44,902 nt of DNA from a virus. The notes below the pieces were generated by a model. That model had not been told where the DNA came from, made no database searches, and saw only the letters and a program-made list of their open reading frames with translations. Shown piece by piece: positions 26,965-42,415 of this stretch (its first letter is position 1; the number at the start of each line of letters is the position of its first letter). The stretch spans positions 1 through 44,902 of IMG/VR virus record IMGVR_UViG_3300031920_000284, one strand, 5' to 3'. Position numbers and translations under genes: made by a program.

Positions 26965-27812
26965 CATTTACATTCAACAATGGTCGTTAATCATTGCCCG
27001 CTACAAGTTGTAGCTGCTGCATATTACTATGCAGATTAGACTATATCATCATCTTATTTCTAAGATGTCTGGCGCTTCCACTCACTTGAGTGTACTCTCT
27101 TTCGAGATAGTCGTTGCACCTTCCTCTGTAATAGAGGCTTGGCTCAGGATTGTCCATATAGGAGTTTCCCTGAATTCACCAGATTTGCTACTAACCATTA
27201 CTGATTAGTGGGCCTTTGAAAGCTTGGTCGTAAGACCAATAAAAATTTTTATATAATTTACCACTTTTTAATGCTCTATTAATTCCTTTACTTGCTCCAC
27301 CAGGTTTTATTTCAAATTCAGAAGCTCATGCTTCTATATTAGGTTTTATACCTTCGTAAGTAGTTATTATTTCTAAAGATTCATTGAAACGATATATAGT
27401 TTTATATCTTTTCTTTAAATTGTCTGGATTTGAATAGTATTTCTTATTCGCTTCAGATAATTTCTTTTTTGTTTCTTCAGTAGGAATATGTGTAAGAACA
27501 TCCAATTCTTTATTATAAATTGGGTGTAATAAATCAATATAATGTTGTTCTTTTAAATATTGTTCATCTATATTACAAGTTTCTATAAGTTCTAGGTAAA
27601 AACATTCTTCTCCATGCTTATTATAGGCATTTTGTAAATGTTCATTCTTATGAATTCCTTTTCGGAGTTCATATCTATGTTTACGGAATCTTTGTTGTAT
27701 GTTTTTAGAACTTCCTATATAAAATTTTGTATTATTACAAATAATTTTATAAATTCCACATACATTTTTATATTGTAACATAGACTCACTAAATTTCATT
27801 TCAATTTAGTTT
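26965..27812 (-). ncRNA. Group I intron in the Sak4-like gene, carrying a GIY-YIG ORF
   Basis: About 848 bases. The ribozyme core is compact at the 3' side (26965-27190): GGACAATCCTGAGCCAAG (27138-27155), P7 5' half near 27106-27114 (ACGACTATC), P7 3' half GATATAGTCT (27038-27047), with several perfect hairpins between. The endonuclease ORF occupies the 5' side, starting about 14 bases after the splice site. The last base is G. The 5' boundary could be a few bases off. Confidence 0.87.
27191..27799 (-). CDS. GIY-YIG homing endonuclease, with one in-frame TGA
   Basis: 202 residues when TGA at 27326-27328 is Trp. N-terminal GIY-YIG domain: CGIYKIICN, FYIGSSKNIQQRFRKH (catalytic Arg) and the Glu in ECFYLELIE, within residues 14-78. 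After a linker, a DNA-binding tail reads GIKPNIEA-W-ASEFEIKPGG, ending GKLYKNFYWSYDQAF, the usual NUMOD-type end (GKLYKGFYW). The TGA falls right before this tail, so early termination would leave the nuclease domain without most of its DNA-binding part. It would drive homing of its intron. Confidence 0.88.
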
Positions 27813-40433: not shown

Positions 40434-40794
40434 ATGTTTTTTGTTTTTCTTTTAATACAGCATTATGAGTATGTATAAAAACAGATACAGCATAATATAC
40501 ATTTAATAGTTTATCAGCATCTACAGGATCTGTAAAAATATTATCATTCATAACACAATGTCTTTTATGAATAATAAATACTCCTCCAAGTTCTTCACAT
40601 TTAGTTATAACAGACATTATCCATTCCCAATTATAATGATATTTTAATTCTGAGGAACTCCAATATCTTTTATTTTGAGTACGTTTTTTTCCCATATCAA
40701 GTAAAACATGCTTAGGATATTCTCCATCAATAACAGCTCCCATAAAAAGTGCTATCATTAAATTATTATTAATTACTGGCTTTTTTATTTCCAT
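40426..40794 (-). CDS. Unknown protein
   Basis: 122 residues, helical and basic. No motif recognised. It ends with TGA overlapping the next ATG; with UGA as Trp it adds WSI to TAA 40417. Confidence 0.65.
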   Translation of the reverse strand: MEIKKPVINNNLMIALFMGAVIDGEYPKHVLLDMGKKRTQNKRYWSSSELKYHYNWEWIMSVITKCEELGGVFIIHKRHCVMNDNIFTDPVDADKLLNVYYAVSVFIHTHNAVLKEKQKTYD

Positions 40795-41021
40795 GATATT
40801 GTATATTCGGTATAATGGTCTCTAGGATCAGACATATTTTTTATATCATATCCATCATATTCTAATCGTTCTTTCAAAAAACTAGATATTCGTGATTTAG
40901 TGACTTGAAACTCAGCTTTCGCTATAGCTTCTTTAATAAGAATTATCATCTCTTTATACTCTTGTGTATCTATCTGATTTTTTAAGAAATTTGTTTTTTC
41001 TCTTGCTTCCTCTGCTTTCAT
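40785..41021 (-). CDS. Unknown small protein
   Basis: 78 residues, helical, charged (EEAREKTNFLKNQIDTQEYK), with a small C-terminal beta-like end. It is the first gene after the terminator at 41040, yet no promoter box is visible in the 20-base gap, so it may depend on read-through or a promoter inside the RNA region. Confidence 0.65.
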   Translation of the reverse strand: MKAEEAREKTNFLKNQIDTQEYKEMIILIKEAIAKAEFQVTKSRISSFLKERLEYDGYDIKNMSDPRDHYTEYTISWK

Positions 41022-41039: not shown

Positions 41040-41073
41040 GAAAAAAGGCAACCCTAATTAAAGGATTGCCTTT
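41040..41073 (-). terminator. Intrinsic terminator after the hairpin RNA
   Basis: AAAGGCAA(T)CC, a loop, GG(G)TTGCCTTT followed by more T on the minus strand. The stem of about 10 bp has small irregularities. It ends the transcript that comes from the tRNA region. Confidence 0.85.
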
Positions 41074-41271
41074 ACCACAGATTCATGTAATCTTAATGTG
41101 GCTACTGCTTAGAGATTCCATCCTCTACCTGCGTAGTATACAGTTTACTACGGATTATGTTTTCTTCGTTAAAACATGATAAAAATTACGCATACTAAGT
41201 TAACGAGTAATATATCCTCGATATGTTATTTCACCAAAACATATAAAACGTACTCTTGGAAAACAGAGTCG
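41040..41271 (-). ncRNA. Candidate structured non-coding RNA: seven consecutive hairpins and a terminator
   Basis: Directly after tRNA-Thr and without an ORF. Reading the minus strand: ACTCT/AGAGT; ATATGTT/AACATAT; CGAG/CTCG; ATGTTTT/AAAACAT; CGTAGTA/TACTACG with a 7-base loop; AGAG/CTCT; CCAC with an inner AGATT/AATCT ending GTGG; then the terminator stem. Four of the stems are perfect with 7 bp or more including an inner helix. I do not recognise a known RNA family. Confidence 0.45.
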
Positions 41272-41345
41272 AGCCCGATGTGAGATTCAAACTCACGACA
41301 TCTTCATTACAAGTGAAGCGCTCTGATCAACTGAGCTAATCGGGC
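41272..41345 (-). tRNA. tRNA-Thr(TGT)
   Basis: 74 bases. Acceptor GCCCGAT/ATCGGGC, D-arm GCTC..GAGC, anticodon arm CTTCA-CTTGTAA-TGAAG (anticodon TGT), T-arm GTGAG-TTTGAAT-CTCAC, discriminator T. CCA is not encoded. Confidence 0.93.
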
Positions 41346-41477: not shown

Positions 41478-42224
41478 CTACATGATATTATCATTAGGTA
41501 AATCAGATAGTGCTAAATTACTTTTTAGTAATTTAATATCATTATATTTAAAAGGAAGATCATATGCTTTACACCATTTCCTAATAGCATTATCAGAAAC
41601 ACCAAATTGTTTAGCAATAGTAGTGAATGGTTTAGTAATAATCAACTTAAGTAATTGTTCTTTTGTAGGTCTCTCAATAGTTTGTCTAGATTTGTCAAAA
41701 CAAGGTTTACATTGTTTAGCATCATAGCTAATTTCTATTCCACATTTACAATATTTTTTAGGTCGAATATAATCCGGATCAAAAGTTTTTTTATTAAAAT
41801 TTATCTTATTATCCATTTTAAATTGAATCATGTTATCCATAGTTGCTTCAGGATTGTGAATTTCTCTATGACAATTTGCACACAACAGTATACATTTATC
41901 TACTTCTAATAAAATCCTTTCCATAGATGTATTCCCTAAAGTTCTTTTATCTAACTGAAATTCTTTAGTTGATGAATCTATGTGGTGAAAATCTAAAGCG
42001 GATATATTATTATTATACCCACATATAGAACATCCATTTCCTTTTAATTCAATCAATTGTAATTTCCTAATTATTCCTCTTGAATCTTCTTTAAATAAAG
42101 AATTACTATTTAATTCTTTTCTTTTTTTATAATTATCTTTTTGTTTACAATTATTACAACAAAACTTTTTTTGAAGTCCTGTTAATTCTTTTTTACACAC
42201 TATGCAATATAGTTTTTCTTTCAT
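41478..42224 (-). CDS. HNH endonuclease with N-terminal zinc finger and C-terminal helix-turn-helix
   Basis: 248 residues. Zinc finger CIVCKKELTG ... FCCNNCKQ at 8-30; HNH core CSICGYNNN, ALDFHHIDSS and LLCANCHREIH within 75-140; a second cysteine pair KKYCKCG ... CKPC; and an HTH FTTIAKQFGVSDNAIRKW near 202-219. Typical free-standing or intron homing endonuclease. It has inserted in a tRNA region, its stop codon adjoining a tRNA 3' half. No group I core is visible around it. Confidence 0.85.
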   Translation of the reverse strand: MKEKLYCIVCKKELTGLQKKFCCNNCKQKDNYKKRKELNSNSLFKEDSRGIIRKLQLIELKGNGCSICGYNNNISALDFHHIDSSTKEFQLDKRTLGNTSMERILLEVDKCILLCANCHREIHNPEATMDNMIQFKMDNKINFNKKTFDPDYIRPKKYCKCGIEISYDAKQCKPCFDKSRQTIERPTKEQLLKLIITKPFTTIAKQFGVSDNAIRKWCKAYDLPFKYNDIKLLKSNLALSDLPNDNIM

Positions 42225-42302: not shown

Positions 42303-42415
42303 TAGGGAAGAAGGGAATTGAACCCTTATGTAACCAAATTACTCTTTCTACACGGTATCAGCGTGAGGAGATACATCCCTATATTTAGTGCTCTAACCAA
42401 CTGAGCTACACGGAC
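42303..42415 (-). tRNA. Chimeric tRNA-like locus, Ile(GAT)-type loop, 113 bases
   Basis: 5' GTCCGTG and D-arm GCTC-AGTTGGTTA-GAGC are normal. Then come about 22 extra bases, a hairpin CACG-CTGATAC-CGTG whose loop would hold anticodon GAT, a small GTAA/TTAC stem, a proper T-arm AAGGG-TTCAATT-CCCTT and acceptor CTTCCCT-A. The 5' and 3' acceptor strands do not pair with each other. 113 bases is too long for a tRNA, so it looks like two tRNAs joined, or a tRNA with an insert. Confidence 0.45.

Follow-up and report, generated by a model that had tools for sequence, protein, structure and literature searches.

A hairpin-rich noncoding stretch behind the tRNA array of a phage near the crAss-like phages: probably a 3' trailer with a terminator

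What is the hairpin-rich noncoding stretch that lies between the end of a phage tRNA array and the next gene, and does its structure mark it as an RNA with a function of its own? The locus belongs to a 44.9-kb virus record, which was analyzed over its whole length and is referred to as the window. Four of its proteins, the DNA polymerase, the helicase, the DNA transfer protein and the RNA ligase, place it near the crAss-like phages, and the nearest IMG/VR records share 66%, 58% and 51% identity in the polymerase. A query with a conserved 283-aa protein led to eleven loci, ten of them at 62–65% identity; the protein-led search for closer relatives returned none above 66% polymerase identity and none in bacterial genomes. 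From 1.9 kb to the right end of the window the minus strand carries nearly all genes, and the right end is occupied by a tRNA array (Table 1). Elsewhere, the same strand holds a group I intron at 27017–27244 (Rfam RF00028, 113.7 bits). The final tRNA of the array in the window is tRNA-Thr, in which CCA is not encoded, and 231 noncoding bases (41270–41040, minus strand) follow its 3' end.

The initial annotation had described this stretch as free of ORFs, directly downstream of tRNA-Thr on the same strand, folded into seven hairpins and closed by an intrinsic terminator, and all of these features were recovered. No ORF of at least 40 aa is present; the hairpins are all short, and two of them, hairpins 4 and 5, are perfect 7-bp stems with 7-nt loops (41177–41157 and 41152–41132). 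The terminator combines a G+C-rich stem with a U tract and is one of only five strong ones that the 45-kb window carries on its minus strand. The further wording, according to which the RNA is undescribed, adjoins tRNA-Thr, would be released by tRNA 3' processing and ends in a terminator, fits this anatomy. Coding in another frame of 41040–41270 was rejected because stop codons occur in all frames, and a degenerate tRNA was rejected because neither strand matches the tRNA model.

Table 1. Features of the tRNA array and of the stretch that follows it; coordinates are those of the window unless a relative's locus is named.
Feature	Position	Strand	Remarks
tRNA array	right end of window		order Met, Asp, Arg, unusual tRNA-like element, HNH endonuclease gene, tRNA-Thr
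tRNA-like RNA without D arm	42303–42381	minus	1 kb upstream of the putative trailer; conserved in clade
Same element in relatives	L098:312-390, L113:7015-7092, L112:2864-2941, L114:11476-11553
Same element in relatives	L122:1501-1578, L123:1501-1577 (-), L127:3002-3079, L128:1493-1570
tRNA-Thr	41271–41345	minus	anticodon TGU; ARAGORN; Rfam RF00005, 68.2 bits
Noncoding putative 3' trailer with short hairpins	41074–41270	minus	no ORF of at least 40 aa; hairpin excess
Hairpin 1	41252–41269	minus	5 bp, 8-nt loop
Hairpin 2	41221–41244	minus	7 bp, 10-nt loop; MFE only, absent from centroid
Hairpin 3	41204–41220	minus	4 bp, 9-nt loop; MFE only, absent from centroid
Hairpin 4	41157–41177	minus	perfect 7 bp, 7-nt loop AACGAAG
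Hairpin 5	41132–41152	minus	perfect 7 bp, 7-nt loop AACUGUA
Hairpin 6	41110–41127	minus	5 bp, 8-nt loop
Hairpin 7	41074–41102	minus	outer 6 bp and inner 4 bp
Intrinsic terminator	41040–41073 (41073–41044 without the last 4 nt)	minus	12-bp stem, 6-nt loop, U tract; -17.1 kcal/mol
Next ORF	40785–41021	minus	78 aa, no family; start 18 nt past U tract

The stretch had also been called more structured than expected, a claim that stands for the number of hairpins and falls for the folding energy. Seven perfect Watson-Crick hairpins of at least 5 bp were counted where 1.7–1.8 are expected, a number reached in none of 500 dinucleotide shuffles. The density in this area, 7–8 such hairpins per 231 nt, is matched at only a few other places of the window, and the stretch ranks with the densest clusters there. 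Its ratio of observed to expected hairpins was unmatched in 107 noncoding stretches (180–320 nt) of related phages, whose own baseline is 1.54 times that of shuffled sequence. Trailers of tRNAs in the clade show no general hairpin excess over other spacers (observed/expected 1.48 vs 1.54, from seven trailers, the stretch 41040–41270 being left out).

As for folding energy, the whole stretch on the minus strand gives z = -2.5 to -2.7 against shuffled sequence. This low energy (z about -2.6) is due entirely to the terminator: once it is excluded, the signal vanishes and the remainder folds no better than its shuffles (z = -0.08 and +0.44 in two runs). When G-U pairs are forbidden, z becomes -2.2, which restates the surplus of plain Watson-Crick hairpins. 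The plus strand reaches z -4.0, or -2.4 without the terminator, a relatively better value because the minus strand is rich in G+U and its shuffles therefore fold well. The plus strand was rejected as a real RNA, given that the terminator has the orientation of a minus-strand transcript, all neighbours lie on the minus strand and there is no promoter evidence. The case illustrates that a strong terminator alone can lend an AT-rich stretch a structured appearance.

Sequence searches returned no homolog. Rfam was scanned with 41040–41270 at curated and lax thresholds (E up to 10), a check proposed at the outset, and gave no family, GOLLD, ROOL and hammerheads included; weak sRNA matches were judged to be chance. 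A blastn search of 50,697 phage records with the stretch as query produced no convincing sequence relation, and its best matches, fragments of about 35–43 nt with one at E 5e-3, were likewise attributed to chance. No similar sequence was found by blastn in the relatives, the closest of which has 66% polymerase identity, and the exact pattern of hairpin 5 had no match in IMG/VR. A single-sequence covariance model built from hairpins 4–7 detected no homolog in 19 loci of relatives or in 19 whole records; apart from the stretch itself, its strongest hit (E 0.029) falls on the antisense strand of a tRNA-Glu, where three successive hairpins occur by chance. As no homolog was found in these relatives, there is no covariation to show.

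The arrangement of the locus does recur. In L112 (record G019) and L113 (record G025) the last tRNA is tRNA-Asp, and only a few nt behind it comes a strong hairpin with a T tract, ahead of a gene. In L098 (record G001), tRNA-Pro and such a terminator stand 265 nt apart, the sequence between them being noncoding and unrelated, and a gene comes next. The order of last tRNA, terminator and next gene (within about 50 nt) is thus common to three relatives, and it appears from these comparisons that the position recurs while the RNA does not. Since two relatives have the terminator directly after the last tRNA, the roughly 195 nt present here are an addition, and since the arrangement recurs without similar sequence, the extra sequence is lineage-specific.

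We therefore favor, with a probability of roughly 0.6, a reading in which the tRNA-array transcript ends in this stretch, as its 3' trailer and terminator. Transcription would run leftward on the minus strand through the tRNA genes and past tRNA-Thr, and would stop at the intrinsic terminator; cleavage by host RNases at the 3' end of the tRNA would then leave a fragment of about 230 nt with a row of weak local hairpins. These hairpins would probably shield the end of the transcript, or merely set the tRNA operon apart from the next gene, and no sequence-specific job is indicated for them. A dedicated structured RNA, which the initial annotation had imagined as a sponge, a nuclease decoy or a regulator, is left unsupported: none of the relatives found conserves the stretch and its energy is ordinary without the terminator, outcomes that largely agree with two of the refuting conditions set in the initial annotation. 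Neither 7-nt loop, AACGAAG or AACUGUA, has the U33 that an anticodon loop carries, and a decoy for anticodon nucleases accordingly gains no support. Three observations speak against the trailer reading: a neutral spacer has no need for such a density of hairpins, the two adjacent 7-bp/7-nt hairpins of identical geometry look designed, and about 195 nt have been added compared with the two relatives whose terminator directly adjoins the last tRNA. If the stretch is a trailer only, its significance hardly goes further than showing where the tRNA operon ends.

The hairpin excess over shuffles and over noncoding DNA of related phages is also what would commend an orphan phage small RNA, excised from the tRNA transcript and binding protein or RNA through its loops. 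Other noncoding stretches, partly conserved or strongly folding, lie between the tRNAs of related phages, and one of them holds a RAGATH-1 hammerhead; however, with no homolog found and hence no covariation to show, an ordinary energy outside the terminator and no Rfam family, we consider this origin unlikely. Somewhat less credible again is its bolder form, in which the 195 nt from tRNA-Thr to the terminator would be a fast-evolving small RNA, freed by tRNA processing, whose row of hairpin loops of identical geometry would be offered to a protein or an RNA of the host; trailers of this kind would be a general, lineage-specific cargo of the tRNA operons of crAss-like phages. Were a small RNA released here, RNAs directed at the host could originate from phage tRNA arrays.

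The gene downstream suggests other roles. The terminator ends 18 nt ahead of the start codon at 41021 and is equally close to the next gene in L098, L112 and L113, so that the stretch might act as a 5' leader or attenuator, switched by pairing of 41127–41120 (UAGAGGAU) with the 5' arm of the terminator (AUCCUUUA, 41066–41059). This 8-bp complementarity, with one G-U, can be read from the sequence, but by a rough estimate a match of 8 bp is unsurprising by chance at such a length; the downstream ORF has neither a family nor a relative that we could find and promoter evidence is lacking, which makes attenuation improbable. At the DNA level, the perfect 21-bp dyads (41157–41177 and 41132–41152) could be protein-binding sites, for example operators of a promoter of the downstream operon, which would need one nearby if the terminator works. 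Their stems are Watson-Crick only and they share an identical 7-7-7 geometry at a distance of 25 bp; nevertheless, no Bacteroidetes-type promoter is recognisable around the stretch and sigma-70-like matches occur there at chance frequency only, and we rate operators as more improbable still. A self-cleaving theta or HDV-like ribozyme that trims the tRNA 3' end would sit in exactly the position such ribozymes occupy in other phages (PMC10879173). A permissive HDV-like descriptor, which as many as 24% of shuffles satisfy, detected no such fold that begins at the end of the tRNA, and Rfam was negative even at E up to 10, so this is the most improbable of these readings by far.

A better candidate for an undescribed RNA than the putative trailer is the tRNA-like element in the same array. 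It comprises an acceptor stem, an anticodon arm and a T arm, with 8–9 nt in place of the D arm and a UUGG-containing stretch ahead of the T arm, and a 3-bp helix surrounds the anticodon arm (ACC/GGU, UCC/GGA, CUC/GAG or CAC/GUG). An alignment of nine distinct phage sequences, fitted to a model of the other three helices that leaves out the 3-bp helix, has 98.1% of its cells paired and shows changes on both sides of 16 of the 18 pairs; it scores 1.02 for covariation, where shuffles score 0.24. The anticodons are GAU and UAU, with ACG in records G030 and G031. A descriptor of the element recovered the known copies and had no match in 1.87 Mb of shuffled sequence; the few additional hits fall within ordinary tRNAs. 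ARAGORN misses the element, the Rfam tRNA model scores the copy in the window at threshold, and counterparts of about 80–85% identity occur in about 78 Streptomyces phages, where they lie in the tRNA array and are mostly unannotated.

Several further observations concern the tRNA arrays. The HNH gene of the window (41478–42224) is flanked on the minus strand by sequences like tRNA halves: a 5' half (GTCCGTG TA GCTC AGTTGGTTA GAGC, 42415–42383) precedes the D-armless element, and a 3' half (GGTTCAAGTCCACC CTCGGAT, 41480–41450) directly follows the HNH gene. Their acceptor strands can pair at 6 of 7 positions, the T stem is imperfect, and the two halves give the impression of a tRNA gene interrupted by the insertion. 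Endonuclease-like ORFs with in-frame TGA where Trp would fit are found in the arrays of relatives (L102:4217-4952 and L113:16780-17269), the one in L113 being followed by a group-I-intron-like sequence and a tRNA 3' half. A+T-rich helices of 9–13 bp close spacers immediately upstream of tRNA genes in related phages (L098:6712-6860, L098:1873-1986 and L111:1845-1895), and the second of these spacers folds with z -4.3. Array stretches 77–87% conserved between two phages (L112:1875-1960 with L113:5045-5131, and L112:2214-2363 with L113:10484-10623) are at least partly noncoding and belong to no Rfam family, and a RAGATH-1 hammerhead ribozyme lies within a phage tRNA array at L115:11156-11247 on the minus strand.

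Among known systems, the sponge RNA 3'ETS-leuZ of E. coli derives from a tRNA 3' trailer with a terminator at its end. The stretch is alike in being a tRNA 3' trailer with a terminator, in so far as the preferred reading holds, but it shows no conservation. Phage T4 encodes the small stable RNAs C and D in its tRNA cluster; the likeness is that of a noncoding stretch in a phage tRNA array, whereas the stretch described here has no convincing sequence relation to any phage record searched, and its transcript is a putative one. GOLLD and ROOL likewise occur as noncoding RNAs of phages close to tRNA islands (PMC12286853), but both are large and conserved and show covariation, whereas the present stretch has no Rfam match. 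Theta (HDV-like) ribozymes, whose place is the 3' end of tRNAs in phages (PMC10879173), adopt a double-pseudoknot fold, of which none was found at the end of tRNA-Thr. With the 3' trailer and terminator of a tRNA operon the stretch shares its place directly after the last tRNA, its strand and a hairpin followed by a U tract; in the relatives G019 and G025 such trailers measure a few nt, whereas the stretch extends over 231 nt and carries more small hairpins.
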